Assembly (NCBI GenBank): GCA_017506865.1
Contig: JAFCMP010000094.1
Coordinates: 62,001-126,000 of the forward strand
DNA length: 64,000 nucleotides
Reading direction: 5' to 3'
From: Tribonema minus
Lineage: Eukaryota > Sar > Xanthophyceae > Tribonematales > Tribonemataceae
The notes under the pieces were generated by a model. It was given only the letters and a program-made list of their open reading frames with translations. It made no database searches and was not told the origin of the DNA. Positions 1 to 64,000 of this stretch are shown here, piece by piece. How positions within the stretch are numbered: the first letter of the stretch is position 1; every line of letters begins with the position of its first letter. Position numbers and translations under genes: made by a program.

Positions 1-308
1 ATTTTTCAACTTGAAGTTATGCCGGGAAGTGCCTGTTCCATCGATTTGGGTTTGTCAGATACGGATTTCATATACGTATATACGGAAAATACGCAGAAAT
101 ACGTATTTCTACCCGTATATGAAATCTCAATATACGGTTTTTGCCAACCCTCAGTGTACTGTCGTCTTTTGTGTCGTGTGTGCGGTGCTGCGCAAGTGGG
201 TTAGGATTAGGGTTAAGATCAGGGTTACAATCAGGGTCAGAGTTAGGATCAATGTTAGGGTTATTGAAGACACTATCACGCAGCTCTGAGCAAACAGGCA
301 TGACTGAC

Positions 309-3300
309 CTTCAGGCTCGCCATACTGCCACAGCACCGTCACAGCTAGCGCCATGCAACGGCCGCCGTTGCCATCCAATGGGGTAGACTTGACCAGTGAC
401 CAGCTTACTTCCGTCACAGCGAGCACTGACACTGGCGAGAATGAGACAGAGTGTCTGTGCGCGCCTAGGGACAGAGCGCCCAACTGCCCTCTGAAAGGCA
501 CCAGAGGCATCCCTGCAGAGCATCAATACAAAGAAGGAAACAGGACTCTAAATTATGACTGTGAAATATTTATCAACAAATGCAATACGTACGCTTGCAG
601 ATGCTGGCTAATGACTGTTGAGGTGGGATGGTACGCCCCACACCATACTAGGAAGCGCCACATTGCACTGATGAAAAGATGATTACACGCTGTGATCTGG
701 GCTGTCGTATTGGTCCTCCTTGTGGACTGGAGGGGATGTCTTGTGGCAGTTGGGAATGTTCTTGGTCCGCTCTCCTGAGGACAGGGGTTTAGGGGGTATG
801 TATGTGTGTTGAACCTACAACTTTGGCAATAACTTCTGAGCACATGTCAGACAGTGGCTCACAGCGGAGTAGCAGCCGATATATTCACAGTCGTGTGCAT
901 GCAACCGTGCTAGCAAGACAGTGAAATTCAGCCGCTTTCAACGCCTCCACAGATGTGCTTTGACTTCTACTGCTGCAAAATGGACATGTAGCACAGTAAA
1001 CTATGTAAAAACAACAGGGCTTCAGACCAAATCCTTCTTGCTGGACTGTGGGGATTGCTGACGTGCAGTGGGAAATTGGGAGGTATGTATCTATGCTATG
1101 TCAGCCACGCCCCTGTGAGTGCGTGACAGACGACGGCTACAACGTTTAAGCATTCACTGTGTCCGTGGCCGTGATGAGCGTGCAAGTAATGACTAATGAG
1201 CACTACACACGATGCAATTGCCTGCTGTAGGTGCGGTACCGTATACAGCTATAGAATACTTTATACAGCACTACACGACACTTGCCTGCTGCATCCGCTG
1301 TGTCAGATGCCGTGCGCTTGGCCACACAGGCGACACCTACTGTCTTGAGTACACTCCCAGGTGCCAGCCTGACAAGATTGGGCAGACACATGGAGCATTG
1401 ATGACAGCGTCAAACAAGTGCTGGTTGATTGCATGATGATGATGAGTGATGCAGCCATGGCATGACACAATTCCGCAGTGTGCATCATGGTCTGCTCCAA
1501 GTGCACTAGGAAGTATTTTGCCACAGGATGATCTGCCCAACATTACCTAAGGCATGGGCACATAATTGCGCCGTGTGTACATCTATGAGTTCATGAAAAT
1601 GATCGGTGGTGTCAATACACTGTTGTGTGCGAATGCGACATGGCTCTGGTCACGTGGTTTTGATTATCTTTGCGTTGCTCAGTAAGTTCAGCACAATACT
1701 TCGGACGCACTCACAAATCCATCATATGTGAAATGCGCAGCGTCTCAACCAGCAACAGTACTGACCGTGACCAAGCACATATATTCAACTACTTCGAAGG
1801 ACTTGAAGTACTCAAATGCCAGAATCTGGCCATTATGAAGGGCCAAGCAGTTCCTCGAAAGGAGGCGCAGTTGCACTTTTCGCGGTATGAGTTTGCTTTC
1901 CCCTGTCTGAAATTGTCGCTGCCAACGTATGCATGCTGCGCCATAGGGCACTGCTATGTATGCGTATACGGCACTAGAAGAGTTTGGTATGCACAAATTC
2001 CACTTGGGCAATGTTTTACATTCTGTGACAGCACTGACCTGACCAGGTATTGCCTGGTGATCCAAGGTCCGCACGTAACGTGAGCTGCCTCTTCTGACAG
2101 GGCACGCGCAGTGTCTTCAGTATTTGTGCCTGCCGCTATGAATTCTCGTGCTGCTGCCAGCAGGCTAGCAGCAGTTGCTGACTGCTGCGGCTGCTCCTGG
2201 TTGCAGCAACCTGCAAAAGCAATGACAGTGTGATTGTTGAGCACAGGGTTCAACACCACCCTCTTGAATGTCAGTGGTAGGTTGTGTTCAGATGTTTGCC
2301 ATCATTTTGGGACTGAGCTTCTCCCTGCTCGAGTGCGCTGATAACACATGCTGACAGCATTGATGACTTCAATGCGCCAATGACAAGTCAGAAAGTTCAT
2401 GATATGAATGAGCTGACCGAGTGCTGAGTGACTCATTTGGGCAGTGCAAAAGCAAGCGAGTCGCACACTTTGATGACACCCCGTTGTGATCAGGAACGCC
2501 TTGCATATCACTGGTAATACCACACACCACATGATATGTACAAGTACAGTACTTCGAAGTACTGCGCTTTTGTTCGTTCCACATTGCTTAGATATTGCCA
2601 ATACCGTGTACTGAAAGCTGAGCAGTTTCAAACGAAACATTTTGCAGGTCTCACCGTGAGCCGTGCAGCTCTTCGGCAGCACACTGATGGTGCGGCCAGT
2701 GAGGCTTGTCTTGGCGTTTGCTGCACGTGGAGCGTCGTCTGTTGAAGTTGGGGGCTTGAGGACGATTTCGGTGGGTCGTAGGGTGTCTGGCAGTTGCACC
2801 ACCAGCACCAGGCTCAAGTCGCTGAACTGTGCGACAGAGACCGGATGTTCAGCACAACACAGGTTTGCAGAGGAAAAAAACAGGGAGGGGGAAGAGAGAA
2901 AGACCGGGGGTGGGTTGATCTAATGATACTGATGATGAGCTGCAACGCTGATGTTACACGTTGAGCATACCAGCTGAATGAGCGCCCTGTGCGTGTGAAG
3001 GTAACAAACAATTATTGTCTTTCTGGTGGGGGGGGGCGGGGGGGGGGGGGCAACTGCGCTGCACACATTGCATTGGTCTGCTTTGAGATCAGGCAACTTT
3101 CGACAACAAACAATTGCACAGAGATGGGAACTGGCTCACTGTACACCAGCTGATGCGGCAAACATGTAACTGATCATGTGGAAAGAGAATGTACCTGATG
3201 TAACAGTCATACCACCGGCCCTACGCCAACGAGGCCATGATGTTTGTGCTGGCGAACTTCATGAAAACGGGAGATTTGCCATCACAGAATTTCCGAGTAG

Positions 3301-3616: not shown

Positions 3617-3649
<33 letters not shown>

Positions 3650-16873: not shown

Positions 16874-19800
16874 CTATAAGGCTTTGCCCTGCAGCAGCTG
16901 TAGCGCGAGGGAGCGTCGGAAGTGCTGCATGTGGTCCTGACCAAACTCCAGGGGGAGGTCCTCGCTGATGTAGTCCGCAAACATGCACGTAAACACTCCG
17001 CAGTCGCAGCCGTTCTCCTGCTGAGGCGTGCCATCGATCGTGGGGACCTGCGCGTGGGGTAGGTATAGGTATATGTTAATGATTGTTAGCGAACGTATTA
17101 TTAGCAAACGTGTTATTAGCGAATGTGCAGGCGAACACTTCACAGTCGCAGCCGTTCTCCTGCTGAGGCGTGCCATCCATTGTGGGCACGTGCCATCGAT
17201 CGTGGGGACCTGAGTGTGGGGTACGTAGGTAGGTATGGGTATAGTGTAAGCGAATGTGCAGGTAGCGGTAGGGATATTATCGGCAAAAATGCATGTGAAT
17301 ACGCTGCAGTCGCAGCCGTTCTCTTGCTGAGGCGTGCCATCAAATGGTGGGAACCTGCGCACGGGGTAGGTATAGGGTCAAGGTTCGGCTTCAAGAAGAT
17401 GGTGTGGGGACCTATGCATAGGGTTAGGGGCTAGGGTGTGCATTGAGGTTAGGGTCAGCGTTGAAGTTAGACTTGAGCAACAATGTCCGGCCTGCATGAG
17501 AAGTTGAATATGAAATTGGACTTGATAGAAACTGTGGGGGAAGGGACCTTGCGCATATGATAGAGTCAGGGTTCGTCTTAATTAAGCGAAAACTTGTGCT
17601 GTGTATGCATCGGCTCCCAGGGATTTTTGCATGCACTCCTGCAGCGTACATGTGCTGCAGAGCACTGGTGGCATGTTTTGTCGACGCATTAAAAGGATCA
17701 GAAGACATTGACTTGGTCCAAGTTGCCCTAATGGGGGGAGGGGGAGTTTGTTGTTGGTGCTTCTGCCAACGTTGACAATCCCAACTGGCAAATGCCAGCG
17801 GTATGTAGTTTTGGAACCGCACCGCAGCCAAGCTAAATGTGCCTCTGCAAACTGAACTTCCGACATACGGCATATACATACACACACGACAGTACACGCC
17901 CGCCAGCACGTCACAAGAACATTGGGTGCAGCTTGCGCCAAGGGAATCCCCTTTCTTGTCCAATCTAATTTAGAAACATATACTTCAAAGTACATGCTCC
18001 AATGTGCATGCATGTGTTCGGTATGCATGTGAGCCACAGGACTTGAAGTACATGCCGCTGGCGCATCACAGATATTTTACTCAAAGGAGTTGATTTACCT
18101 TGGTCTGTCAAGGGGGGCGCTCTCTTTCTTCTTGTAAATACTATATGCTCCACAATGTCATGCTGTCCTCCTCAGTATCGTTCAATACCGTGACGCCCTA
18201 CTCCACATTTCTGCTATCTGCGCCTCCCCAGTAGCCTAACTTAGTACTGCTCCTTGAACAACTGACATTGCTGTGACAAGGATTGAGCATCTTCAAGCCG
18301 TACGTATATGACCCGCTAGTGGGCACCGAACAGCAGTTGCAACGTGCAATGTCACCTGATCCCCATGTTTTCCTCCAGTGTCCTGTCATCATGGCAGCAT
18401 GAGATGCATGCCGCCGGCACATCACGATTTACTTTAAGCAATTGAATTAATTCACCATGGTGCAGGTTGTACCTAGGAGGGGCGCTCAATTTGTGATCGT
18501 GCTGTATATGCTCTTTTCCAAAAACAATGCGCGTGTTCCTTGGGCATCATTTCAAGTGCATGTCAACGGCACTGCGAAACCCATGGTTCACATTTGTTTT
18601 CTAGTTTCCAAAAAGACACTAACCTTAGTCCAGGTTGCGCCTAGGGGGGGGGGCTTCTTCAAGTCAAAATGCATGCCAAGAACACAGCAAATCCCATAAT
18701 TCAAGTTTTTTCCCTTGTGCAAAGGGACACTAACCTTAGTCCAGGTTGCGCCTAGGGGGGCCCCCTTTTTGTCCTTGTGCTCATCCTCTAGCCACCGCTC
18801 CAGCGCATTCAGGAAGGTGGTACCCCTGCCACCCATGCTGATGTTAACAACAGAATACAACAATAAGTCAGTTAGGGTAGGTTAGGATTAGGGTTAGGTT
18901 GACATCCTCTAGCCACCGCTCCAGTGCGTTCAAAAAGGTTGTACCCCTGCCACCCGTGCTGATGGCACAGGAAGGGAGGCGAAGTTGGTGCGAAGTTGGC
19001 GTTGAAGCTATCACACGACGGGAAACTTCAAGGGCTTAACCCAACCCTGACCCTAACTTTAACTCTAGCCACTGCTCAGTGTATATAAGAAGGTAGTGCC
19101 CCTGCCACCCATGCTGATGGCACAGGAAGGGAGGCAAGATTGGTGTTGAAGTTTTGACACATCGGGAGACTTCAACGGCTGAAAATGGCCTCACACTCAA
19201 GACACCATACATCCTATCAAAACGCCAGCAGGCGTGCAGCTCAGACTTGATATGTCATAGAGCGTGCTTTAAGTCGCAGTATATGGCATCCAATCGCTCA
19301 TCAACGGCAGCTGTTCAGCAAGGCAGTTGGTGTGCTGATGACTTGTGTAGTAGGTTCTACCCGAGGAGCACTTTGAGCGCCTATAGAGGTACCAAAAATG
19401 CGCATGCTATCAGAACAGGCACAGCTGCCGTTGCATTGTGTTTATGTGTGTATGAGGTATACTTCAAAAAGTATTGTGTGCATCTCCCTTGCGCAAATGC
19501 CACAACCAGACATCATCCCATATTGCCTATCATACAGAGGCGCACACCTGTTCACGCTTCGACTGAGAAGTTGGCGCACCAGCACTACATGACTTGAAGA
19601 TGCTGCATGCATTCAAATGATGCTACTATGGTACGTGTTGGAGCATATGACAGTTACATGCTCATTGCCTGTTGCATGCTTGATGGTTACGGCAGTCACA
19701 CTTGCCGGTACAGAGAGCACACTACAATCACTTCTAGGGGCACATGACTGGCATCGGTTTCCTATTGCATTGGTCACCTTGACGTCTACCTGACAGCGGA

Positions 19801-22800
19801 GCAACAGGCTAGAGAGCAGCAGCTCTCTACGTGGCGACGATATTATTTATAAAACTACTTGATGCAGTGATGTACGGCACAGGGCAGCAGCGCTCACCGC
19901 GAGGGTTGCGAAGTGCACCAGCAGATCCACAGCAGGCTATAGTCGTCATGGCGATGCAGACACACGGTATGTATGTACTTGAAGCTAGTGAGTAGCAGCT
20001 CTCATGTTGCAGTGGTATGTATGTATCTCGCCTGTCGTAGTACTGTATGCGCCTTTCTTGGACGTAGATCACGGCCAGGCACCAGTGCATGTTGCCGACA
20101 TTTGCGGGCATGATGACTTTGTCCAATGTGAATATATCCACCTTGGCCTTCTTGGTCCTGCAACCGCACAATCATGATTGACGATAAATACATTCATGAT
20201 TGGAGCAGTGAGGTCATCATGATCATCAGTCATCATCACCATGATCATCAAGCAATAGTCATGACGGCTTTGTCCAATGTGAACATGTCCACCTTGGCCT
20301 TCTTGGTCCTGCAAGCGTTCAAACATGGTTGACGATGAATGCATTCATGATTGGAGCAGTGAGGTCATCATGATCATCACTCATCATCACCATGATCATC
20401 AAGCAATAGTCATGACGGCTTTGTCCAATGTGAATATGTCCACCTTGGCCTTCTTGGTCCTGCAAGCGCACAATCATGAATGGCGATGAATGCATTCAAG
20501 ATGGAGAAATGACTTGCTCATGGTCTTCGTTCATCATCACGATGGCTTCAATATGGTTATACATTTGCCGACGTTTGCGAGCATGATGACTTTGCCCAAC
20601 GTGAACATGTCCACCTTTGCCTTCTTGGTCCTGCAACCGCACAATCATGAAGCGCACAATCATGATTGGCGATGAACACATTCATGATGAAGCAACTTTG
20701 TTCATCGTGATCATTCAGTATCACTATGATCGGCAAGCAATGGCTTGAGTATGATTTGGACTTTGCTGCGAAGTGGATACATGCCAGCCACCGTTGCCTT
20801 CTTGGGTCCTGCAAATGCAAGATGTCATTACATTCATACAACGATATTCATGCAATGAATTTCATCCATGACGACACTCGTGTTGAGCGTGAATGCAACC
20901 AGATTGGCCGTCCTTGCCCTGTCATCATACAGTTCAAGACAGCTTTCGGTGAGCAGCTATAAACTGCTGACACAATGCACTACTAAAATGAGAACAAACC
21001 ACAAAGAACAAGGAAGACGCACCGTGAGCCTGCAAATATTATCAGAAAAGCATATCCTACATCAGATCAAATACGTCTACTGGCCCACTTACTTCAACTT
21101 TAAATTGGTGAAGAGCACGTACCACCGCCTGACGCCAGGGTAGTTGTAGCTGTTCTCCGTGAGCTTAGAGAGGAAGTAGGAATTGAAGAAGTGTGACCGC
21201 CGGAGCTGGGGGTCCTCTGTGCACCGCGACTTGTCTCGTTCCAGCAGGAGCTGTTCAGCACGCAAGCGAGGGTGAGAGAGTCACATACCACCATGCAACT
21301 GCTCTGATACACAAGCGATAGAGACATGGACATGTTACACAGGGTGATCAGAGGCGCACAAGACGCAAGAAGCAAGAGGCGAGACGTGCATAAACCTACC
21401 TCTGACTTTAAGTGCCTGGCCCTAACTCAAACCTAACCCTAGCCCTGACCGCCATGCATGCAATGAGAGGCGTGCATGGTTTGTTGCATCAGTGTAACTT
21501 GCCTGCATGTGCATTTCAAGCGTGACTTGCCTGTGCATGTTGGATGCGACTTGCCTGCGTGTGCATATTGCAAGTCACCTGCCTGCATGATGTGCAAGTG
21601 TGACTTGTCTGCAAGTACATGTCCAAGTACATAAGCATGTGTAAGTGTGTGACGTGCCTGCATGCAAATGTTCAAGTGTGGCTTGCCTGCATGTACATGT
21701 TGATGACCTCGTCGTTGAGCCACTGCAGGCCGCGCACGCGCTTCAGGCTGCCCCTACTGAGCGTTGCTGCATACGCATCCGCCACAACCTGATCACCAGA
21801 AGAGAAAAATGTCACAGTGTCAACGGTGCAGTGCTGCTACTGGTACTAGTACTTCGGAGGTGTGATATCACCCATAAAGCACACGTACAGGCATGATTTA
21901 TGCTTAGGGTTTAGGGTTAGGACTAGGGTTAGGGTTAGGTTTAGGGTTAGGGTGGGGTTAGGGTTACAACACAACCTGATCACTCCATTGTCAACGGCGC
22001 ATGTGCGGAGTGGCGCTTCTGACATTATAGGAGTATACTTACACTTCTTACAAGTGATCATCTGTAAGGCTGTGCGTCATTCCCAACAAAGCATGTTCAG
22101 AGTGCCCCTACTGAGCGTTGCTGCATACGCATCTGCCACGACCTGATCACCAGAAGGAAAAATGTCGCGGTGTCAACAGCAACAGTGCATCTGCCACAGT
22201 GTAGTTGCCACAACCTGAATTTTATCACCCAACAAGTGTCACAGGCTCAACAGTGCATCCGCCACAACCTGATCACCAGAAAAAAAATGTTGTAGTGGCA
22301 GCATTGCGTCTGCCACAACCTGAACATCGCCCAACCGAATGTGGCAGTGCCAATAGTGCATCTGCCAACCTGATCAAACACCCACACACATGTCACAGTG
22401 TCAACAGTGCATCTGCCACAATCTGAGCATCCCGCAGACGTACGTGACCCCTCTGTCCACAGTTAATTTTTGACGCAGCAGCCTCGGCATAAGAGCGCAT
22501 TTGCCCAGTAGCACAGTGCACTGCTGTAATCACTGCAGAAATGTTGACATGCTGACTGGCGCCGCAGCTCCATATACAGTGACCAGGTGGCACGTCACAC
22601 ATTGCACTTCACGTGTAGCTACTAGCCATTGATCTGGAATGCGCATCTGCGGAGGAAGTTGAGCACAAGCAGAAGTGAACGTGAAGTTCAGATTCAACGG
22701 TGAGTGACGCACCTCACTGTCTGGTCCAACAAAGGCCCTGTCCACCAGCACTTCCTGCAGGGCAGCACGACAAGAGTGACAGCGCTCAGTGATCACACTT

Positions 22801-44700: not shown

Positions 44701-47700
44701 TCAAAACCTACCACCCCTAGGGCTGTGGAGGAGAGCGGTCTGCACAAGTATATGGCCAACTGGCTGCTGAAGTGGGCGGATGGCGATACCTCTGGCCGAC
44801 ATCTGCTGCTGGCACTCATGGTGGCCACCGCTTTCATCAGCATGTGGCTCAGCAACACAGGTGTGACGCATATCTTCAAGTTGAAGTTCAAATGTCATCA
44901 TCTTCGACATGTCCTCATCATTCGTCATACAATCAAAATTATCGTTTACGGATGAATGCTGATCTGCACGACCTCCTGCAGTAAAAGGCCGCATATCAAA
45001 GGCTCGAGTTCCCATTTTCAACAGCACAGCAATCTCTCTTTCTCTTTCTGCTGATGGCCGCTGTAGCAGTGCATATTTGGTACTGCATGTGGGTCTGAAT
45101 CTGAGTTTGAGTATTGCCCACTGATAGAAAGCTGTTGAGGATTGACAGCACTCCTCTTTGTAAGTGGCTTGGTTTCATCAGCGTGTAGCTGGGATCACGC
45201 GGGTACTTGAAGATGTGGTCAGTCTTCTGAGCACTGCTGACACTCCTCTTCAACATCACAGGCGACCGCGGCTGCCTGAGCAACGCCACCACGCTTCAGG
45301 ACCTGTTGCTCAGTGTTCATTACTATTGTTATTGATGATGGAACTGCAACCATTTACTCTGTGGCTTGAAGCTGTCGCACACAGCCAACCATTCATTCGT
45401 GCGTAGCTCTGCCAAAGTACGCTAAGGTAATCACATTTTCTGTACTGCAGGTGCTAAGTAATCTCTTGCAGGCAATCAAAAACACCCCCTGCTCGCTGCT
45501 GATTGCACGTTGATCGGCCAAAGTGCGCGCAAGCCGCACCACAGATTCTGTACTCTCGGCGCTGACCCTTGCGCTGCCGCCGACGCAAACTATCAAGCAC
45601 CCTCGCCAGCAATTGGAAAAAGCGCATGCAGCCCCTTGCTCGCTGCTGATCACTGCTGCCTCCCCCCCCACCCTCCCCCCTGCTCGTCGCCAACCACCGC
45701 GGCCATGATGATGCCGCTGGCGCTGTTTACTCTGGCCCTGATTACTCAGCGATCATTGCTGTTGTTAGTAATGCGTTTGCCCACTCATGTAATGGCACTG
45801 CGGCAATCAGTTCCTCAGCTCAAAGTCGTTGCACGCGGGTAGCCTGCTGATCATTGCTGCTTCCCCCCCCCCCCCCCGTCGCCAGCTACCGCGGCCATGA
45901 TGATGCCGCTGGCGCAGAGCACCGTCCTGGCGCACGAGCGCCGCCGCCCCGCCACCGCCGCCGTCGGCAGCAGCAGCAGCAGCGCTCAGCCCAGGGGCCG
46001 CAGCGCGTCGCAGCCGAACTTTGCAAACTTCGCAGCGAAGGTGGCAGCAGCTGCCGCGGAGGAGGACCCCCTGGGCAACGTGGAGCTCCCGGAGGGGCAC
46101 TACGCGAGCCCGCGCGCGCTGCCCGCAGAACTTCAACTTGAACTTAAGACGCGCCGCGGCGGCGGCGGCGGCGGCGGCGCGGCAGAGTACGGCGGCATGC
46201 TGTCCAGCCCGCCGCTGCACCAGATGCGCGGCGGCGGCGGCGTCAAGAGGCTGCGCGCGCTGGGGAACCGTAAACTTCAAGTTGAAGTTGGAGGCGCGGC
46301 GGCGGGCATGCGGCGCAGCGCGTCGTCCAGGAGCTGGAGCGGCTACGTCGGCAGCAGCGGCGGCGGCGGCGATGGCAGCGCTGCGCATCAGGCGATGGAC
46401 GCAGCTCCAGGCGGCGGCGGCGCGGCAGGAGGGCAGGATGGGCTGCGGCGCGCGGTTGCGCTGGGCATTGCGTATGGGGCGACCCTGGGGGGCCTGGCCA
46501 CGCTCACGGGGACGGGGGGGAATCTTGTGATGCGGGCTGTTATGGAGCAGGCGTTTCCGGGGCATGAGGCCATCAGCTGGGGCGAGGTGAGCAGGTCAAA
46601 GGATGTTGATTGAGGGTAGAAGTGACATCGTGACAGCGGTATGGTAAGATGGACCAGCACGATACGATACGCTGCAGTTGATCATGTTTTTCAATGGTTA
46701 CAGAGAGGGGGGGATAGGGGGAATCTGGTGATGGGCGCCGGATGGAGCAGGCGTTTCCGGGACACGAGGCCAACAGCTGGGGCGAGGTGAGCAAGTCAGG
46801 CATACTTTAGTTGAGCATTTTTTTCAATGGTTACAAAGAGGGGGGGATGGGAGGAGGTGAAGAGAGGGGGGGGGGGAGGGGTGATGCGTGCTGTGATGGA
46901 GCATGCATGTCCCGGTCTCGAGGCAGCATTACTACGGTCACAAACATTTTCAGGGCATGGTAAGGCAGGCGTTTCCAGGCCACGAAGCCTTCAGCTGGGG
47001 CGAGGTGAGCGGGGCAGGCGTGCTGCAATCGAGCACGTGTTTGCAACAATTACAAAGAGGGGAAATTGGGTGTCATGCGCCGTTGTGCAGCAGGCACTAC
47101 GCGGCCATCAGGCCATCACCTGGGGCGAGTTGAGCGGGGTGCGTACACACATTCGTAGAGCAAGGTGGTGTGTGTGTGTGCACTGTTATGCAGCAGGCAT
47201 GTCCCAGACTCCTGGCCATCATTACTACAGGTCAGTGCGGACTGCCGTGCCGTTCCTTACAACTTTTTCCGCCGCATCAAAGTACTCGTTGCCGATCTCA
47301 CGTGCACTTTCGGCACTGCCTTTCTTTCTTTTCCGCGCCCTCTCCGCACAGTACTTTGTGCTGGCCTTCCCCGTGTGCGTCCTGCTCATGGGCCTGCTGT
47401 GGTGGCTGCTGTGCGTGCGCTACCTAGGGCTAGGGCTCACCCTGCAGCCGCGCTCAGCAGGCAGTTACAGTTACGCCCCCCCCCTCGACAGTTACGACAG
47501 TTACATCCCTGCCGACCGCACGCGGGGGGAGGCCAGCCTCGAGACTGGCCTGCAGTACGGGGGTGCTTCAAACAGGGGGTTGCAGGGGGGCGGAAAGGGG
47601 AAGATCCGGGGAGGGTCTTTTGGGGCCAGCAGTGCGGACTTGCATTCGTGGAACGATGAGGCCAGGACGGCATTGGAGCTGGGGGAAGCGGCGGAGTTTC

Positions 47701-50700
47701 AAGAGGGGGTTCTGACGGGGCAGCAGAAGGCGGTGATGTGCGTGGCGTTCGGCATGGTGCTGCTGTGGCTGCTCAGGGACCCGCCGGGGTACGTATGTAT
47801 CTACGTAGATACTAATAGTGTCGTTTTTGCATGCTCAAACTGCAACTTTGAAGTGCTTGCCCACCACATGGTGCTGCTGTGGCTGCTCAGGGACCCACCG
47901 GGGTACGTATGTATGTATGTAGGCACGGATGTATGTATGTTGTATGCTTGAAGACCATTCTTGAAAACTGCAACTTTGAAGTACTTTCCCACACACATGG
48001 TGCTGGTGTGGCTGCTCAGGGATCCACATATGTATGTATGTAGCTAGTGTGTCTTGAGCGCTCGAGCAATCAGCTTCAACTTTGAAGTGCTGCAGTACTG
48101 CTGTGGCTGCTTAAGGACCCGCTGGGATATGTGTGTATACAACACATGACATGACCTGTTGCGCAATTCGTCCGTGGCACCTGCTAATCTCACTCATGTC
48201 GCACATGCGCACCGAACCGCATTCAGATGTCATGATGTCACTGACGGAGGATGCCCTTGAAAAGCACCCACTGACGACAAATGTACTCACTTGCCGCCTT
48301 CAGAGTCTGCACCGGGCAAGACCGATTGTTGCACGATCAACCCTTTGTCCCACCGCTGTGGGTGCCGAACCCCACGCGGTTGCACTCCCTTCACCTGCCA
48401 CGCAGGGATTGTCAACGCTTCTGCCCGAGCCCGCTTACATAACGGATGGCACCATAGCCATGGCTGCCGTTGCACTTGCTGCATTTCACACGTGTTTTGC
48501 ACTCCCCGCACCTGCCACGCAGAGGTCTCCCGGGGTGGTCAACGCTTCTGCCCGAGCCGGCTTACGTTACCGATGGCACCATAGCCATGGCCGCCAGCAT
48601 GATCCTCTTCTTTACCGGCATATTGCGGTGGGACACGGCGGTGTCGTCGCTGCCATTGCACGTCATGTTCCTGCTGGGCGGAGGTGATTTACTAGGGTTA
48701 GGGTTTGGCTGATGCACACAGCTGTCGCTGCCATTGCAGTCATGTTCCTGCTCAGCGGAGGTACTTAACTGGGGTACCAGTTAGGGTTAGGCCGCACCGG
48801 TATGGCCTAGGCAGCTGCAAGGCCGACTCGATGGTCGCCCTACATGACCTAAGCGTCAAGCTCTCAACAGATTTGTACATTCATGTTCATGTTGGGCGGA
48901 GGTACTTCAATAGGGTTAGGGTTACGCCGTTGCACTTGTTTCGCCTGCAAGATGCATTTAATCGGGGCTCTGCATTGTCTATTTGGGTTAGGGCCCACAC
49001 AGACTTGCACAGTTTAACAACCACAACAGTGTCGTTTGACTTGCTGCTATTGCACGTCATGCTGTGCTGGCAGGAGGTGAGCTGAGCGCTGAGAAGTAGC
49101 GTCACCTTAGTTGAAGTGGGCACTTCAACTTCACACTTATAGAACACATCGCAAGCGGACCTTCGTTTCCTGCTGCTGCAGGCGCCGCACTGTCGAACGG
49201 CATCACCGCCACGGGCATTCCACTGCTTTAGGTCGTACGTGCTTCTGAATGATGCGCTTTCAAGTCTGCATCACAAAATCAGGATAGAAGTACATACATA
49301 ATGATACTGCTGAGCATCACTCGCTGCTCGCTGCCGCAGGTGCGGCGCTGTCGCACCGCATCACCGCCACGGGCGCCGCGTTGCTCTGCACGTGCTTCTG
49401 AATGATATGCTTTCAACTTGTAGTCTGCATCACGAAAACACGAAAAGACGTCGTATCTGATGTCAAACGTGAAAAAACACCGTATCTGGTGTCGCTTGCT
49501 GCTGTGTGCTGCTGCAGGTGCAGCGCTGTCGCACGGCATCACCGCCACTTTCGTCACGTCGCACGAGAGCCGTATGTGATTCTGAGTCATGTAGTCTGCA
49601 TCACAAGAACCAGAAAACAATGCTGAGCATCGCTGCTGCGCGTTGCTGCAGGCGCGGCGCTGTCGCACGGCATCACCGCCACGGGCGTCGCAGCGCGCCT
49701 TGCAGCAGCTTTAACGGAAGCTGTGCCGCACGGCGCGCGCCTCGGCCTGCTGCTGACCGTCGCCTGCCCGTGCGTCATGGTGGTGGCCAACATCATGAGC
49801 AACGTCGCCGCAGCGAATGTGGCGCTGGCGGCGCTGCCGTGCCTCGCGGTGTCGCTCGGCTACAGCCCCACGGTGAGCGCTGCTGCTTGCTCTTGTTGAG
49901 CGCTGATACAGTCGGAGGCACCGCTCGCTCGCTGTTGCATGCGGCGGTTAGCGCCAGAATTAAGGTTAGGTCAGACACTGCTGCCACCGAGCGTTGACAC
50001 CTCTTTGCAAGAGCAGCGCATGTTGCGCTGGCGGCGCTGTCGTGCCTCGCAGTGTCGCTCGGCTATAGCGCCACGGTGAGCGCTGCTGCTTGCTCTCGCT
50101 TCGCACTGACGCATCTGGTTTTGGGAGCTCACTGTTGCGCACTAGGACCAGGGCTAGGCCCCAGGTTTAGGGCCATGCGCTGTTTCTGATGTGCGCCGAG
50201 GTGCTGTCGATGCACACCGATACACGCTCACGCTCTTGCATGCGCCGCAAATCGCACACTGGCTCAGCTGCAGCTCCACACTGTGAGCGCTGCGCTGTTT
50301 TGTGCTGAGCGATGACACATCTGACGTGTTTTGTGCTGAGCGGTGGCACACCTGGTGACGCTGCTGCGCTGTTGCATGCTAGGGTTGGGGCTGGGAGTAG
50401 ATTTACGCTCAGGTTCAGATGCTGTTTCTGTCTGGGCTATCTTTTACAGGATCAGATACTGTTTTCGGTGCTGGTTTCTGTGGGCGACTGAACCAGTGCT
50501 ACGATTTGACGGTAATCATAGAAGTATTAAATTGTGCCAATGACCAAAATGATGGCGGTGATAGTGACCATGATGGTCATGAATATTACATGACGAACGT
50601 GTGTGATCGATCAAGAATGTGTATGCATCATCATGGCTGACGGTGGTCGATCGTGACCATGAATTCAATCATCATGATGATGATCATGAATGCGCGCTCG

Positions 50701-55694: not shown

Positions 55695-58600
55695 CTACAG
55701 CCACGGTGACACACACCCATTTGTCGTCCAAGCTGCAAAGGCGCCAGCATTGTCGGACACCTCATTTTCTTCGCTGATGGCCGTTCTCAGATTCAGGGAA
55801 TGCGCCAGGAGCCGTTCTTGAAACTCGAGAACCTTCTCCGGGTGCTCCGCGGAAAGGTCCGTGATCTCGTAGGGATCGTTCTTGAGGTTGAAGAGCCAGG
55901 AATGCGGGTCTGTGAACATGATGCAGCCGCTGGAGTGCGTTGCGCACTGGTCTAGGTAGGTGGAGTTGTGGTAGCGGCCGCCGTAGTCGTACCACACCTG
56001 AGGTAGGGTATGTATGCAGGAAAAGGGTGAGGGTTGAGGTTAGTAAATAGGGTTGAAGTTGGTGTGCAGAGGCCGAGCGAGCAAGCGACGGGTGCAGTGC
56101 GAGAGCTGCAGGTTCTGCTCCTTCCGAACTGCACCGATGAATGGAAGCAGTGCTCTCAGGAAAGGGAAAAGTGTTGTGCACTGGTCTAGGTATGTGGAAT
56201 TGTGGTAGCGGCCACCGTAGTCGTACCACACCTGAGGTGGGCATGTAGGTAGGAATGGGGTTAGGGTTGAGGCTAAGGGGTAAGGGTTGAAGTTAGCGTG
56301 GAGGCAGGGCCAGCGAGCAATGCGACGGGTGCAGTGCGAGAGCTGCAGCTTCCGCTTTTTCTGAACAGCGCCAAAACATCAACAGCGATCTCAAGAAGGG
56401 ACATGTGTTGCGGCACTGGTCTAGGCAGGTGGAGTTGTTGTAGTGGACGCAATACTCATACCAGACCGTTGTATTGGACGCAATACTCATACCAGACCTG
56501 AGTTAGGGTTAGGGCTAGACTTAGCGCAACGGCAAAGGAATGAGGTATGAGAGCGGGTTAGGGTTAGGGTTAGGGTTAAGTTTGACTTCTAGTCATCTGC
56601 GGCCAAGCATCACAAAAGTGCCTGCAAGAAGCGAAATGCGCTGCAAACTGGTCAAGGTAGGCAAGGTGGCGTTGTTGAAAGACGGCCGCCGTGGTCCTAA
56701 AAGGTTAGGGTCAGGGTAGGCTTAAGCGTGCAGTGAAGGATGAGACCCGTGAGGCGACCAGCTGAGGGCTAGAGTTAGGGCTGAAGTTAGCGCTGAGTGC
56801 AAGCAAGCCCTTCTGCTTCTTGCACACTGCGCCCCGAGCAATAAGATTCAGATTCGCTGTCACAGAGTGATCACGTAACTTCACAAGTACCTGACAGTCC
56901 TCATTCCATATGTACTTCCAGTCCCCGTCGCGAATGGCCGCGGTGAGGTTGCCCGTTGTCTCGTCCTTCTGTATGTTGTAGATGATCTCATGTCGTGGCT
57001 CGCTATCAGTGCCCATCAGAACGGGCCACTGACTGAACCCATCCTGAAGGCGCGAGCACACATATATGTGTACAGTTGAAGTTGATGAGGTGAAGTCTGT
57101 TATGTGTACAGCTGAAGTTGGTTAGCAACAGTTGAAGTTGTTTAGTGGCAGTTGAAGTTTGTGTGTGATTTTATGCCTTGGCTCGCTGTCAGTCCCCATC
57201 AGAACAGGCCACTGACTGAACCCGTCCTGCAGACGCGAGCCAACAAATGCGCACAGTTGAAGTTTATTAGTGAAGTTAAAGTTGATGAGTGACTGTCACT
57301 GCCCATTGCAACCGACCGTTGGCTGGTCCTGAAAGGTGGGCAAACAATGTACAAAGGGCACGTATGCAAGTGAAGTTGAAAGCATGGTGAGGGTCAGTGA
57401 GAGCGCAGCATGCAGAGTTGTCATGTGTTGATGGTGCGGATGCGCCCGCTGTCGCGCAGCAGTCGCCGTTTGCGGCCGCTGTTTCAGCAAATAACAACAA
57501 CTGAGCCACTTGCGAGAACTTCGTCGAGAAAGGGACTAATGTGTTGGTGTGCAGGTCAAACTCCATCAGAACGCAAGCTGCTGCCGTTGACCGTTTCTTC
57601 AAACGTGCATGACTCGTCTCTCATGACTGCTGCCGGTTGCGTTCGCGCACTTCCTGGGCGCAACAATAGCTGTCCGTGTGAGCTGAAGCTTTTTCCATGA
57701 ACATGGTCAGGCAGTCAACAATATCAAAATTGGACTTCATAATCCGTCAACTTCAACTTACCAGCTCTCTAGAGCCTCTGTAGCCGTTTGCAACCAGCCG
57801 GGCTCTATGTATCAAGTCAAAAGAAAAGGCACTTAGTCAATAATCTCAGAATTGAACTTCAATCAACGTCAATGTGAACTTCAATTTGAATTTACCAGCT
57901 CGAAAGCCTCTGCAGCTGTTTGTACCCAACCAGGCTCTATGAAGTAAACGAAACAGCCTCAAACTTGAACTTCATGAACCATTAACGTGAACTTCATACA
58001 CCGCCAACTTGAACTCACCAGCTCTACAGCCTCTGCAGCCGTTTGTCACCGGCCGGGCTCCATGTGTTCAATTTGTTATTATGGGCTCCCAGCCATTAAC
58101 TTCAAATTTTATGATGAAATGCAACTTGAACTTACCAGCTCTAAGGCCTCAGCCGTTTGCGACCAGCCAGGCACCACCATGTCCATCAACGTGGGGACCC
58201 AGTCGGTGACGTGGAAGAGGCCGTTGTAGGTGGTGTTGAGACGTGACTCGGGCAGCCGTGTGCTGCTCACAAAGGCGCGCACGTGGCTGCCGCCCTGTAG
58301 GTAGGTATGGTATGCAGTGCGTAGTTGAAGTTGCGTAGAGGCGTTGTCTGGTGTCAAAGGCGCGCACGTGGCTGCCACCATGTAGGTATGGTATGTATGG
58401 TATGCATGGTATGCATCGCACAATTGAAGTTGCTGTCAGCTGTAGGTAGTGTTATCATCATCATCAATCTTCCGCACATCACTCTTCTTGACAGTAGCTG
58501 GTTGGTGCAAGTATGTTCAGCAATCATGCGGCACAGACTTCAACTTACATCCTGTCAGCGACAGCATTTGTATGCATGATGTCATGCAGATCAATGATCT

Positions 58601-61600
58601 GGCCTGAAACAAACAAAACTTTTGCGTCCTACACAAAAAATGAAGTGCGCACGCTACATACCTCAAAGGTGTAGTTCTTGGCGCCTCTGAATGGATACGC
58701 ACTGAGGCCGTAGTCTCTGCACGGTCCGTTGTCGGAGGTGAATACCAGTATGGCATTGTCCATTATGCCCGCGCTTTCAAGCCCCGATACCAGCCGGCCC
58801 ACCTGTCACGGAGAAAATAGCCAAGACCGTACAGTTAATGGAAGGGGGTTTGACCCCGGATCTGAAGCATGAGTCCCGATACGAGCTGGGACACCTGTCG
58901 CAATTAAGGTAAAAAGCAAGCCCAGTACGGTTAATTCGGGGGGAATTGAACGTGTTTCGACGCGCAGTCCAGCACAGCGCCTTGACATGCGTGTCTTCTC
59001 GAATGTTGATAAACCGCAGAGTTGAAACCACGAGAAGTGAAGTTACTGCCCTGTCCCCAGCGTAGATGATACAAGATGGCAGCTTTTTGCAGTGACATGA
59101 CAGGCAAAAGGTGGCTCACCTCTTTGCCGTCAAAGATTTAAACAAGAACATCCCTGCCTTAGGGCAACTGGCAATTTGTCTCCCTGGAGGCCCAGATAAA
59201 CATGAGCTTTTGCGCCCTCATGAGAAAATGCTAGTGGTGACTTTCCAGGTTGTACATGAGTTTCCCCGCCTTGATGCGATCATCATCGCTCCTTGGATGT
59301 ACGTGAGTCCTCTTGCCTTGACGCAACTGGTGACTCAGACTGGTGACTCAGAGCTTTCGCGCCCCATGTAGTAAGAAAATGCAACTAATATGATCAACCT
59401 CTATATTACGATTGTATCACCTCTAAGTTGTCCCAACAACCAAAACGCAAGTGGTGACTTGCCTCCAGGTCCAGGTTGTACATGAGCTTCCCCGCCTTGA
59501 TGCGGTCATCATCGCTCAGCGCATCGAGCTCCGTCTCCACAGGCGTGTACTGCATATCGTCATCGGGCTCCGCAGGGAAGTGTGGGTTTTGATACGACAT
59601 GTAGAGAAAGAGGGGCTCGTTGTCCCCCCTTTCCTCCCAGTCGCTGACGATCTTGAGGGCGTGATCTGCGGCGGAAAGTGGGTATGTATGTATGTATGGA
59701 TGTGTGTCAGGGTATGTATGGGAACGGGTTGTCGCCCCTTTCCTCCCAGTCGCTGATGATCTTGAGGGCGTGATCTGCGGGAGGGGGTGGGACAGTGGGT
59801 ATGTAGGTATGGACAACGCGTAGCGCCACCACCGTGCCAGAGGCCGACAACCAATCAGCCAAGCAGACACAACTCACGAGAGCATGTGTTGCCAACGGAA
59901 AGCGGAGTGAACTAGGAACACGATGTGAACCCTGTCTGAGGTGGCACGTCACTGCTCATCAAGGACCCAACCTCAACATGTGCTGAGCTTGCTCCGTCAG
60001 GGTATGTATGTACGAGGGCGTGATATGCAGTGGGTATGTAGGTATGCATGCGTGACAGCACGTGACGCACAGGAATCATCTTGTTCATGCTCCTGCAACC
60101 GATATAATACGCGTTCTTCATCAGAGCTTCGGGTTTGAAGTAGATCGCACCCTGCGACATTGCGCACCTGTGAGTGACCAGCTGCCTGCTGTGTACAACC
60201 ACCATACTCTCACAAGTAACACACAGCACACACTCGCCATGCTCTAGAGCCTGTGCCAGCAGCCTCTGCGTCAACATTGCGCCCAGACAACCACACTTTA
60301 TCGCTCCAGCAGCAATTCCCACGCCACTCCGACGGTACTTGTACTTGTGCTTCCAATGAACGGCGCTTCTTCCTTCAAGTTTGCAGTAGACTGCGCAGCC
60401 TTCTGCATCAACGTTGACCCCCCAGACAATTACACTATATTGCTCCAGCCTCACAAAATACCACAACCGATACTGTCTCTACTTGAAATTTGCAGTAGGA
60501 GATACTTACTGCGCACCTGTGAAGAGCTGCGTGCTGTGCACGCCCGCCTTGTCCGCGACGCACGCGTAACCGTCGTAACTGCCGTAACCGCCCCCCCCGG
60601 TGCCATTCCCCAGAACCCCCCCCTGCTGCTTCTCCCCCGGCTCATCACTCCCATCCCACGCATTCATGAAGTCGAGATACGCCCCCTGCACTAGCTGGTG
60701 CGATGTGTAGTGAGCCATGGCGGTGAGGAGACCGTAGCTGGAGTTGAAGCCGCGGGAAGTTGGCAGGAGCTGAGCACTGGCGTGGCCGAGGTGCCACTTG
60801 CCGATGAGGTGGCTGGTGTAGCCGGCGTGCGCGAGGTACTGCGGCAGCAGCTTGTACTCCACGGGAAGGCCCCAGACGCTCTGCACGGCAGAGCATGTAT
60901 GTATATGCACGCATGCATAAACACGTACTTCTATAAGCATACTTGGAAGTATATACCAGCATATGTTGAAGTATATAACTTTGAACAAAGTCATTATCCA
61001 GCTTGTACTCCACGGGCAGGCCCCAGACGCTCTGCGCAGAGGGGCATGTACGTATACAGGCGCATCAGCATACTTCAAGTATGTAACTTCAAGAAATGCA
61101 ATATGCACTGAACCCCACGGGAAGGCCCCCAGACGCTCTGCACAGAGGGGCATGTATGTATACACACGTATGTATACACACGTATGAGCATATGTAACTT
61201 CAAAAATGCTAACATGCAGCTTGTACTCTCGGGCAGGCCTGCGCAGAGGAGTATGTACGTATACACATGTGTGAGCATATGTCGCTTCAAAGAGCAGAGG
61301 GGCATATTTGTATGTATACACATGGACTGTATGAGCATAAAGCACCTCGGAGCATGGATTTATTGCGCTTGTACTCCGGAGGTAGGCCCCAGATGCTCTG
61401 ACCCTAACCCTAACCCTAACCCTAACCCTAACCCTAACCTAACCCTAACCCTAGCCCTAACCTAACCCTAACCCTCTGGGCAGCGAGCAGAGCGCAAGAT
61501 GTTTAAACTTTATGTCAGCGATAGCCACATGCTAGGGTTAGGGTTAGACATGACTACGCCTCAAAAGATTGCCGTTGGCTGACTTGCTTCCAGACAGCAA

Positions 61601-63804
61601 TACGCTTCCACTCGCCACCTTGCAGAGTTCAACGTCGGTAGGTCTTGCATGCAACCTCACCACCAACTTCAACAGTGACTCAACTGCAACAGGCCAGATT
61701 CACCGCGCCTTTCCAACCGAACTTCAACCGCGAAGGGTAGAACCTTGCATGCAACCTCACCACCAACTTCAACAGTGACTCAACCGCAACAGGCCAGCAT
61801 CTACTGCGCGCTTCTAATCCAACCTTTCACTGCAAAGCAAACGGTCAAATAAGTGCAGGAGCATATAGCCCATGTGACGACAGCTGCAGCTGCAGCATGT
61901 TGTGGCCTGTGCTTCAAAGCCAAACACACGCTGATGATATGCCAGTTGAAAAGCGGTTACAGTAATAAAAGCGGTTACAGGACGCACCGCCGTGCCGACA
62001 GCCGCCGCCTGCATGCCCGTCTTGAAGGGGTACTGTAACTTTCGAAAGACATACACACATTGGTACTTCGCCGTTCAAAAAATAGTTACAATCAAAAAAC
62101 GGTTACGCCACGCACCGCCGTGCCGACAGCCGCCGCCCGCATGCCCGTCTTGAAGGGGCATGTAGCGGCCCGCCATGAAGTTTTTTTTCAAAAAAGAAAA
62201 AGTGACACCCAAGCACAAAAAACAATTCTAACAACAAGAGCGGTTACAGCACGCACCGCTGTGCCGACAGCTGCTGCCTGCATGCCCGTCTTGAAGGGGT
62301 AGCGGCCCGTCATGAGCGCCGCGCGCGCGGGCGTGCACAGCTGCTGCGTGTAGTACGACATGAGCTCCACCCCGCTCTCCTTAAGGCTGCACCAACATCA
62401 CGACACAGTGGCGGATACGTCAGTTACTGCGCTCTGAGCCTGAGGTCTGAGGTTGCACCAGCGTCATGGTGCAGTGGGACAAGTGGCAGTTACGTCAGTT
62501 ACTCAGCTCTAGGCTTGCACCCAACGTCACGGTGCAGTGGGATGCATTGCAGTTTCGTCAGTGGCTAAGCCTGCGCCACTTTACGATGCAGTGGGACAAG
62601 CGGCAGTTACATCAGTTACTGAGCCTGCACCAACATCATGACGCAGCTTCATCAGTAGCTGAACCTGCATCCAACGAAACGACGCAGTGGGACACGTGGC
62701 AGTTACGTCAGTTACATCGGAGGAGTGGTCGTACAGTGACTCGCCAACGATTTTTGCGTAACGTGGTAAAGGATACATTTACTTCATTCAGAGTGCCATG
62801 CGTCAAATCCCTGACCCTATAGCAACTCTCATACTTCTATCCTGAGCGCTGCTGTCCATACATACCATGCAGTCAAGCTTGCGCATACGGCCGCGCTCCT
62901 TGAGCCTGCACACGCGTGCATTCAAGCGCATTTGCTACAACCAACACCAGTGCTCAGTGGGTTCGACTGTTGTCACCGCTTCTACGCACTGCGACAAATC
63001 CTGCGGGATGAATACCTACCGCATGGGATCACGCCCCTCACCCTAACTTCAAATCCCAATGCTGAAAGCAATGTAGTGCTGGCATGATCAGGTGCTTAAG
63101 ACCTCTGTTTGGCATGAGGCCCCAGAATTTGTTTTGGGACATCCAGCCTACCTCACAATTTGAGTGTATCCTACATATTCATTTTGCACCCTGTTGAGGT
63201 TAGGCGTGAGGCCAGCTTAGTCGTACAATGTCCAGCTTACTTCATAAGTTGAGCGCACAAGTGTACCGTAGCACCTTCAACTTGCACCTGTTGAGGTTTG
63301 GTGTGAGGCTCGAGAAGTCATCAGTGGTCCAGCCCACGTCATTTCACCCCCGTGTCATAATCCATGTGGTCATGTCAGCACCAATCTGCTTTCATGAAAG
63401 TGCATCAAGGTACCCCACTTCAACATGTACCTGTTGAGGGTTGGTGTGAGGCCCAAAAAGCCGTCAGAGGTCCAGCCTACATCACTTGAACACAGGTGTC
63501 CCCTAGCAAACTTCAATTTGTACTGTTGAGGTTTGGTGAAGGCCCCGAGGACTCGTTCGTGCAGCCTACATCATAAGCTGAGTGCACGAGTGTAACTCGT
63601 ACCTGTGTGAGGCCCGAGAAGACGTCTGAGGTCCAGCCTACATCACTAGTGTACCCTAGCAAACTTCACCTTGTACCTGTTGAGGTTTGGGGTGAGGCCC
63701 GAGAAGTCGTCGGAGGTCCAGCCCACGTCATTCCACCCCATGTCGTCCGCCAGTATGAAGATGATGTGGGGAGGGCTTGAAGTTGAAATTGCTGCGGCGT
63801 TATT
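55695..63804 (-). CDS. Arylsulfatase B-like sulfatase, 5' end off right edge (ARS-B)
   Basis: This is a paralog of ARS-A. Exons on the minus strand: 63804-63677, 62386-62257, 60880-60517, 59665-59463, 58802-58662, 58294-58136, 57043-56891 and 55997-55695. They total 1581 bases (526 codons plus TAG), all phases matching. The first exon with the expected signal or anchor lies to the right of the window. Active-site elements present are [50 protein letters not shown] and [12 protein letters not shown]. Two introns of ARS-A are absent: exons 4-5 are one exon here and so are the last two. The donor at 59463 is GC where ARS-A has GT, and the donor at 60517 is GT where ARS-A has GC. A Gly-rich loop follows the third exon's conserved part. 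Confidence 0.95.
55925..56700 (-). repeat. Acceptor-side splice-junction array, last ARS-B exon
   Basis: CTGGTCTAGGTAGGTGGA and GTTGTGGTAGCGGCCGCCGTAGTCGTACCACACCTGAGGT recur near 56180-56240 (nearly exact, CAG kept), 56415-56475 (with a further short copy to 56500) and, weakly, 56645-56700. TTAGGG-type tracts lie at 56500-56520 and 56556-56580. Confidence 0.88.
57000..57345 (-). repeat. Acceptor-side splice-junction array, ARS-B exon 57043-56891
   Basis: GCTCGCTGTCAGTCCCCATCAGAACAGGCCACTGACTGAACCC and a TCCTG acceptor recur near 57180-57235 (close copy) and 57290-57335 (diverged). TTGAAGTT runs fill the spaces. Confidence 0.85.
57755..58180 (-). repeat. Donor-side splice-junction array, ARS-B exon 58294-58136
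   Basis: The exon end (WSQTAEALEL) and donor recur near 58014, 57891 and 57757, spacing about 117-134 bases. The copies keep AACTTACCAGCTC, that is, an intact GTAAGTT donor, in at least two cases. Confidence 0.9.
58255..58400 (-). repeat. Acceptor-side junction copy, ARS-B exon 58294-58136
   Basis: CAAAGGCGCGCACGTGGCTGCC and TGTAGGTATGGTATG occur at the true junction (58270-58310) and again at about 58348-58395. Confidence 0.85.
59240..60050 (-). repeat. Junction copies on both sides of ARS-B exon 59665-59463
   Basis: A donor-side copy near 59245-59300 repeats TTGTACATGAG(C/T)TTCCCCGCCTTGATGCG. Acceptor-side copies of CCCCTTTCCTCCCAGTCGCTGA and TGATCTTGAGGGCGTGATCTGCGG lie near 59735-59782, with a fragment near 60017. 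Confidence 0.87.
60865..61400 (-). repeat. Acceptor-side splice-junction array, ARS-B exon 60880-60517
   Basis: CTTGTACTCCACGGGAAGGC with CCCAGACGCTCTGCACAGAGGGGCATGTATGTATACAC recurs near 61000-61050, 61105-61160, 61215-61265 and 61365-61400. The last copy passes directly into a long CCCTAA tract (61400-61470). Confidence 0.9.
61400..61470. repeat. CCCTAA tract joined to a junction copy
   Basis: About ten CCCTAA units with minor variants start exactly where the fourth acceptor-side copy of the ARS-B exon 60880-60517 breaks off. Confidence 0.9.
61975..62310 (-). repeat. Donor-side array of the sulfatase active-site exon, ARS-B
   Basis: The end of exon 62386-62257 ([14 protein letters not shown]) with its donor recurs near 62110-62160 and 61982-62035, spacing about 128-141 bases, with GCGGTTACAG(G/C)ACGCACCGC kept. 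The same exon edge is amplified in ARS-A. Confidence 0.92.
63180..63700 (-). repeat. Donor-side splice-junction array, ARS-B exon 63804-63677
   Basis: ACCTGTTGAGGTTTGG(G/T)GTGAGGC and CCGAGAAGTCGTC, then GGTCCAGCC(C/T)AC, recur at 63676 (true) and about 63601, 63521, 63429, 63286 and 63189. This is the highest copy number among donor-side arrays. Some copies keep GTAC/GTGC donors. Confidence 0.9.
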
Positions 63805-64000
63805 CTGTTACAGCGAAACAACAGACCAACAAGTGCGCAATATATGTATACAAGAGACTCACCTTTGTGAGGTACACCATATGTACATCCATGATACGTG
63901 CGCAAGGGGCATTATCTGTGTACAAGCTGTGAAAGCTCGCTCTGATGTTGTCACCACTGCCTAAAAGAACAGGTTGCCAGCGATGCAACAGCAATGCGTG
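63805..64000 (-). other. Start of ARS-B intron 1, gene continues to the right
   Basis: Intron sequence upstream of the acceptor at 63805. By comparison with ARS-A one more 5' exon coding the N-terminal anchor or signal is expected beyond the window. Confidence 0.6.

Follow-up and report, generated by a model that had tools for sequence, protein, structure and literature searches.

Are the exon edges of Tribonema minus repeated in the adjoining introns, and do introns grow in this way? The question arises from a 64,000-nucleotide stretch of nuclear DNA (the window; positions 62001-126000 of contig C94, from an assembly of 158.18 Mb in 554 contigs), for which the sequence-only reading had claimed that most exon edges are followed into the intron by tandem copies of the junction. 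T. minus is a xanthophyte (Xanthophyceae) of the PX clade. The window contains two paralogous sulfatase-like genes, A and B, a Ulp1-like gene, a transporter-like gene on the plus strand, named by eye, and other reading frames. In a Pfam scan of 10 window frames, PF02902 passed the family cut-off in two, and two others gave sub-threshold matches (Sulfatase_C and FmiP_Thoc5). The two window genes whose exon edges were modelled are:

30768..41209, minus strand: sulfatase-like gene A (alkaline-phosphatase-like, P0002); spliced alignment, 10 true exons used
55698..62386, minus strand: sulfatase-like gene B; spliced alignment, 7 exons used, the last 5 according to transcript-derived P0001

Arrays of copies at exon edges

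Exon edges were placed independently of the repeats, with a purpose-written splicing-aware protein-to-DNA aligner. Residues 1-490 of the deposited T. minus protein P0002 match gene A with a single mismatch; residues 491-544 could not be placed, so that gene A extends below position 30768. Two further annotated micro-exons of gene A are junction copies. Gene B was mapped with P0002 plus P0001, a protein from a EukProt transcriptome assembly, and 289 of 297 residues aligned to P0001 are identical; acceptor 59665 was placed by a match to the exon's own sequence, and one donor of the model is doubtful, with TG as its dinucleotide. Outside the window, the set was extended to MCM genes and three sulfatases on other contigs. 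Deposited T. minus proteins served as templates for A, MCM6, MCM7, MCM8, MCM9 and the three sulfatases, the T. minus MCM7 paralogue P0227 for MCM3, and a chytrid (fungal) MCM5, P0141, for MCM5; several other MCM proteins scored lower as templates for the last two. The names MCM3, MCM7, MCM8 and MCM9 are our own reading, since the sources label P0252 as mcm6-like and P0247 and P0248 just as members of the MCM2/3/5 family. Because of their match to an adjacent exon edge, eight micro-exons were taken out of the models; kept, they would be counted as exons and conceal copies. The resulting 11 genes, some of which run past the edge of the DNA analysed, have 69 introns and 138 edges, with 67 GT donors, 1 GC donor, 1 uncertain donor and 69 AG acceptors.

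For each edge, the outer 40 exon bases were compared with the adjacent intron at a Smith-Waterman score of at least 30, weaker copies remaining uncounted. By this edge test, recurrence was found at 38 of 138 edges in the 11 genes, and both sides of exons are affected, as had been claimed (22 of 69 acceptors and 16 of 69 donors). The chance level, obtained with the same 40-base queries in 5520 equal-length slices from the introns of other genes, is 0.16%. Edges tested against the intron at the other end of the exon (the far side) recur in 0 of 108 cases (exons of at least 100 bp), and exon centres recur in 2 of 86 (exons of at least 140 bp). This is the comparison that the sequence-only reading had put forward for its own refutation, and copies are clearly enriched at edges over centres.

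The arrays are distributed very unevenly. Copies are present at 9/18 edges in A, 8/12 in B, 7/10 in MCM5, 8/14 in MCM6, 3/18 in MCM8, 2/6 in MCM3 and 1/16 in MCM9, and the edge test found none in MCM7 (0/22) or in the three sulfatases outside the window (0/22); junction copies thus occur in 7 of 11 genes, with 4 of 11 lacking them. The claim that most exon edges are affected is therefore valid for the combined edges of A, B, MCM5 and MCM6 (32/54) and fails elsewhere, as in MCM7 and the three sulfatases (0/44, a group chosen after the counts were known). Within the window, 17 of the 30 edges of A and B bear one to five copies. Arrays were also recognised by eye at two acceptors of the Ulp1-like gene and two donors of the transporter-like gene; of these four edges, 17047 alone rests on a homologue alignment, and the other three come from reading frames. 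The arrays in the window are as follows.

38443..39017, minus strand: gene A donor array; edge 38955, copies 38831, 38707, 38584, 38555 and 38443; TRF period 124, 92% matches
37238..37602, minus strand: gene A donor array; edge 37577, copies 37410 and 37238
36884..37083, minus strand: gene A acceptor array; edge 36915, copy 37037
35525..35984, minus strand: gene A acceptor array; modelled edge 35584 according to P0002 (position of the true acceptor possibly slightly different), copy 35921
34325..34617, minus strand: gene A donor copy; edge 34534, copy 34329
33095..33625, minus strand: gene A acceptor array; edge 33132, copies 33330, 33425, 33520 and 33625; TRF period 99, 4.9 copies
32261..32743, minus strand: gene A acceptor array; edge 32333, copies 32469, 32539, 32571 and 32699, AG in all
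31671..32185, minus strand: gene A donor copy; edge 32160, weak copy 31671 (26 exon bases)
30859..31066, minus strand: gene A acceptor array; edge 30902, copy 31019, which is a 36-base exon of the deposited model
61956..62315, minus strand: gene B donor array; edge 62257, copies 62116 and 61988
60848..61397, minus strand: gene B acceptor array; edge 60880, copies 61031, 61137, 61248 and 61397
59619..59811, minus strand: gene B acceptor array; edge 59665, copy 59774
59225..59517, minus strand: gene B donor copy; edge 59463 (GC donor), copy 59237
58270..58406, minus strand: gene B acceptor array; edge 58294, copy 58379
57713..58176, minus strand: gene B donor array; edge 58136, copies 58019, 57896 and 57762, GT in all; four-unit alignment
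56983..57276, minus strand: gene B acceptor array; edge 57043, copy 57226
55936..56705, minus strand: gene B acceptor array; edge 55997, copies 56231, 56466 and 56705; telomere-like repeats among the copies
20092..20741, minus strand: Ulp1-like acceptor array (PF02902), by eye; probable edge 20157, copies 20308, 20459 and 20630, all AG; TRF period 151, 91% matches
16974..17376, minus strand: Ulp1-like acceptor array (PF02902), by spliced alignment to P0253 and by eye; edge 17047, copies 17209 and 17354, both AG
46516..47138, plus strand: transporter-like donor array, by eye; probable edge 46586 (reading frame only), copies 46786 and 47004 (GT) and 47129 (TT)
47753..48138, plus strand: transporter-like donor array, by eye; probable edge 47788 (reading frame only), copy 47902 (GT), then two decayed copies

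Altogether, the 38 edges carry 76 copies, one to five each. The nearest copy lies at a median distance of 159 bp (interquartile range 125-198), and its exon part has a median of 48 bp and its alignable intron part one of 20 bp. On the exon side, copies extend over 13-98 bp, the exons concerned having a median length of 157.5 bp. These extents come from anchored extension; copy positions and dinucleotides come from an earlier measurement, whose extents suffered from self-overlap. Spacing is regular, as at an MCM5 acceptor (172, 344, 507, 696 and 881 bp), a B donor (117, 240 and 374 bp) and, read by eye, a Ulp1-like acceptor (151, 302 and 473 bp). Units are head to tail with a regular period in the TRF rows 20109-20506, 33098-33576 and 38583-39014, and, judged by eye, consecutive units of an MCM6 donor array lie directly against each other, tail to next unit. 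In many other pairs the intron part is mostly unalignable (median remainder 73.5 bp), and simple contiguity is therefore unproven for them; in many such units the exon part is about 90% identical. Local repeat pairs less than 3 kb apart in a self-BLAST of the window are almost all direct (124 direct, 2 inverted), and stricter filters applied to the window and 16 other genome stretches gave 252 direct and 2 inverted pairs. That arrays of copies at exon edges are real, extend beyond the window and are patchy is thereby confirmed.

Junction excess and decay of the copies

Local repeats in the 11 genes fall into 52 families, 34 of which straddle a splice site with at least 10 bp on each side, while 8 touch an exon and 10 are purely intronic. 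Random sliding within the gene predicts 8.9, 13.0 or 16.0 junction families of 52, with at most 60, 100 or 160 exonic bases, respectively. The excess is retained among the families with the highest best identity: at the limit of 100 bases, 19 of 26 families with at least 85% identity lie at junctions (6.7 expected), 13 of 19 with at least 88% (4.1 expected), and 11 of 16 with at least 90% (3.2 expected). In the last group it remains significant (p = 0.0006) even when the detection span is lengthened 1.5-fold, a factor set by ourselves. Slower decay of the exon half is therefore not the whole cause of the excess. Exon overhangs also fall below the prediction for uniform breakpoints (mean 47 versus 73 bp; above 75 bp in 2 of 38 versus 17 expected). 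As the reason for the excess, we infer that exon edges either are hot spots of mutation or preferentially retain the copies.

Divergence between the exon part of a copy and the true exon averages 12% (range 0 to 27%), and over the 76 pooled copies identity drops with distance (Spearman -0.47, p = 2e-5), which bears out the decay seen in the initial reading. Between copies, exon-derived 30-mers are more alike than intron-derived ones (identity 0.795 versus 0.574 in 54 pairs); since the copies were found via their exon part, this comparison is biased and we build no claim of constraint on it. With seeds from the intron side, 26 of 136 edges gave a match, and exon identity reached at least 0.80 in 12 of these.

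In arrays with at least two copies, private differences at codon positions 1, 2 and 3 number 2, 0 and 19 in the true exon and 45, 49 and 56 in copies beyond the nearest, showing that the true exon is coding and the outer copies are close to unconstrained. The nearest copies, with 8, 14 and 25, have a bias towards the third position, which is also seen in the 32 nearest copies that are not annotated as exons (0.044, 0.060 and 0.207 differences per site). The nonsynonymous to synonymous ratio is 0.18 for nearest and 0.39 for outer copies, both under the value of at least 0.5 that we would expect for a copy neutral since birth. CpG context fails to remove the third-position excess. The bias might come from a translated phase of the nearest copies, from a diverged allele having taken the place of the true exon, or from synonymous substitutions that GC drove in the true exon.

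Many copies keep splice signals, as had been noticed at the outset: AG is retained in 31 of 44 acceptor copies and GT in 23 of 32 donor copies, with GC in 2 more. However, the 56 of 76 splice dinucleotides counted as retained compare with 59.6 expected from the identity of the exon part, so there is no sign of selection keeping or purging them. The suggestion that the copies supply decoy or alternative sites thus receives no support from the dinucleotides, which are at neutral expectation, or from the even spread of changes over codon positions in the outer copies. The copies look like scars of recurrent tandem duplication and not like functional decoys.

Distribution in the genome and telomere-like repeats

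In six 8-kb stretches taken at round coordinates, local direct repeats make up 2.7, 5.2, 15.6, 32.5, 0 and 33.0% of bases. Four of these were inspected (L048 and L052 were left out), and three of the six have exon-edge copies: L053, where a DDHD gene (PF02862) bears three copies at a donor and two at an acceptor; L050, with donor copies beside a PP2C exon (PF00481); and L051, with donor copies beside a PI3/4-kinase-like exon (PF00454, sub-threshold). The repeats of L049 belong to an ankyrin-repeat exon, with no junction array. Patchiness is evident within contigs as well, local repeats in C334 ranging from 0% at MCM7 to 32.5% elsewhere and three stretches of C535 having 0, 1.3 and 33%. In total, arrays were found on eight contigs (C94, C156, C445, C1, C146, C24, C334 and C535). 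Expression level is an unlikely cause of the differences between genes. MCM subunits are thought to be expressed together, yet MCM7 has no copies and MCM5 and MCM6 have many.

Interstitial TTAGGG repeats occur at 10 places in the window, and the genome contains 7062 overlapping exact (TTAGGG)4 matches, contig-end arrays included. Contig C2 starts with a telomere-like array of the TTAGGG type. Introns with such repeats carry junction arrays more often than others (7/9 versus 21/60, p = 0.026), but the association is not seen within the six array-bearing genes A, B, MCM3, MCM5, MCM6 and MCM8 (7/9 versus 20/30, p = 0.69). The association exists only between whole genes; there it hints at break repair, but interstitial telomere repeats were not accepted as the cause of the arrays.

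Origin of the copies and their effect on introns

The best explanation of the arrays, and a probable one, is that short stretches spanning a splice site were locally duplicated in tandem again and again and then decayed. The direct repeats are gene-specific, have regular periods and are in excess at junctions; the true exon is under purifying selection, and the outer copies decay in a near-neutral manner. A segment across the splice site would be duplicated locally, at a nearest-copy distance of mostly 125-198 bp, perhaps by slippage during replication or by the repair of breaks. Of the two resulting copies, the inner one, closest to the interior of the exon, would remain the working edge, and the duplication would be tolerated because this copy stays in use. 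The outer copy would land in the intron, where it would normally be spliced away and decay. Repetition at the working end would then build an array with the oldest copies farthest out, and a longer intron. The third-position bias of the nearest copies is not predicted by tandem duplication with neutral decay and counts against it, as do the unalignable intron parts, the short exon overhangs, the 10 of 52 purely intronic families and the 4 of 11 genes without copies.

Several other explanations have to be weighed against this one. Tandem duplication might be an ordinary, genome-wide event, with junction arrays merely easier to recognise by their conserved exon half. In favour of this are the 10 of 52 purely intronic families and the exon-derived halves, which remain alignable for longer than intron-derived ones, with the discovery bias already mentioned; given the junction excess in the families of at least 90% identity and the non-uniform exon overhangs, we consider this unlikely. 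It is possible, if on the doubtful side, that the duplication process is directed to splice junctions and tied to transcription or splicing, for example through breaks at exon edges, and repeatedly places a copy of 25-75 exon bases, splice site included, in the intron. In that case, exon edges would be hot spots of mutation and a main source of intron length, and the youngest copies would be translated for a phase. An origin in the repair of double-strand breaks, involving templated insertions and telomerase and with breaks clustered in some genes, would fit the interstitial TTAGGG repeats and their enrichment in array-bearing introns, the one MCM6 copy that ends in a TTAGGG-type repeat and the many spacers without visible homology. 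We regard this origin as somewhat improbable, because the enrichment is not seen within the six array-bearing genes and regular multi-copy arrays are better explained by repeated tandem duplication.

Use of the copies as alternative donors, acceptors or in-frame mini-exons that generate isoforms is very doubtful. In three of the eight exactly matched deposited models, 8 exons are junction copies (5 in MCM8, three of them upstream copies of one acceptor, 2 in A and 1 in MCM9), but these models are predictions, and the reading is open from copy edge to true edge in just 4 of 36 cases. The third-position bias retained by the nearest copies would agree with isoform use, and the distance from the edge is a multiple of 3 in 11 of 16 nearest donor copies (p = 0.004, one-sided and for the better of the two sides); for nearest acceptor copies (7/22) and further copies (4/16 donor, 5/22 acceptor) the numbers are chance-like, outer copies decay almost neutrally and the splice dinucleotides are at expectation. 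P0001 joins only the true edges of B, across four introns and five arrayed edges, although this is a single sequence, about 97% and not fully identical to B, from a source genome that may or may not carry the copies. An assembly artefact is scarcely conceivable. PMC12459048 records that T. minus was omitted from a gene-cluster analysis for insufficient assembly quality, possibly of another assembly. However, repeated or collapsed reads would not produce arrays whose copies diverge from the true exon to the extent described, with codon-structured changes, and that lie on eight contigs.

Returning to tandem duplication across splice sites, its consequence for introns is best seen in the array-bearing genes, in which growth of introns by junction duplication is supported. 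Local repeats account for approximately 19% of intron bases overall, with values by gene from 0 to 42%. The claim that they explain much of the intron length is therefore overstated; in A, B, MCM5 and MCM6 the share is 30-42%. Introns with copies are longer than those without (mean 1010 versus 814 bp, p = 0.004), although longer introns also give more room for copies. The sequence-only reading had linked the pattern to intron gain by tandem duplication of a splice site; duplication on both sides of exons, with decay, was borne out, but gain was not, since it is existing introns that the process lengthens.

The closest precedent that we found is a potato gene, in which, according to PMC4974935, a tandem duplication across an intron-exon boundary carried splice signals along and made a new intron. 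The T. minus arrays share with it a duplication that crosses the boundary together with its splice signals. As presented there, the potato case is single and yields a new intron, whereas in T. minus introns become longer, donors and acceptors are both involved, and up to five copies are found, in 7 of 11 genes. Rogers-type duplication of an exon segment containing AGGT, as outlined in the same text (PMC4974935), likewise supplies extra splice signals, but its unit is exonic and its product a new intron, in contrast to the part-exon, part-intron units of T. minus. Introner elements, as treated in a dinoflagellate review (PMC11453091), also shape intron content genome-wide; they create introns at many positions, whereas each T. 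minus copy is specific to the exon edge it belongs to. An introner or transposon origin was rejected, the copies being gene-specific and only 0.16% of the 5520 slices of other genes' introns giving a match. The 16 stronger long-range matches in the window look like A/B paralogy and telomere-like repeats. Tandem exon duplication, including that behind mutually exclusive exons, leaves exon sequence directly repeated within an intron, and in this the arrays resemble it. Duplication of whole exons was nevertheless rejected, given that just a 13-98 bp edge is copied and that edges never recur on the far side (0/108). Duplicated exons would also show coding constraint, of which the outer copies give no sign, while the nearest ones have a partial third-position bias. 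Intronic minisatellites consist of tandem units, as do the arrays, some of which TRF detects, but the latter are fixed to splice junctions, align in register with the true edge and comprise one to five diverged copies.

In the open-access literature that we searched, we found no account of junction-copy arrays as a genome-wide process (subscription papers, any T. minus genome paper included, were outside the scope of the search), and in the open-access literature found, splice-junction duplication had been described only for single genes or isolated cases of intron gain. For gene annotation, our data carry a warning, as predictors may turn junction copies into exons; 8 exons in three of the eight matched deposited models are such copies. 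In T. minus, junction-crossing tandem duplication is frequent within one genome and has left copies of graded age, and with these the cell's handling of duplicated splice sites, the rate at which such sites decay and the growth of introns become measurable.

Genes without junction copies and an intronic motif

Tandem copies of exon-edge segments in the adjacent introns (junction copies) were found at none of MCM7 and the three sulfatase genes on contigs C136, C535 and C334 of the same assembly (stretches L038 and L042-L045), and local repeats are nearly absent there. Elsewhere on C334 and C535, outside the stretches that hold MCM7 and the sulfatase genes, local repeats are abundant. Across the 11 modelled genes, the motif TTGAAGTT / AACTTCAA is over-represented 27- to 32-fold in introns; words similar to it also follow donors in the DDHD gene stretch (L053:5270-5600) and in gene B.

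Telomere-like repeats and a pair of reading frames

Interstitial TTAGGG telomere-like repeats occur at 10 places within the window, and exact (TTAGGG)4 matches number 7062 genome-wide, counted overlapping and including contig-end arrays.

TTAGGG telomere-like repeats, window positions
21924, 24345, 30280, 36118, 39517, 43925, 44284, 52173, 56558, 61402

In gene B, CCCTAA repeats lie upstream of copy acceptors (56000-56560, minus strand); read by eye, they include CTAAC as well as runs of pyrimidines, resembling a branch point and a pyrimidine tract. At 9382-10633, two similar reading frames adjoin on opposite strands. Together they resemble a partial gene duplication in inverted orientation; one frame has a weak, sub-threshold match to Thoc5.

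Junction copies in deposited gene models

Several deposited models include junction copies as exons.

Junction copies annotated as exons
MCM8 (P0247, stretch L040): 5
MCM9 (P0248, stretch L039): 1
Gene A (P0002, in the window): 2

Since junction copies have been taken as exons in these models, T. minus protein models may carry artificial internal repeats.
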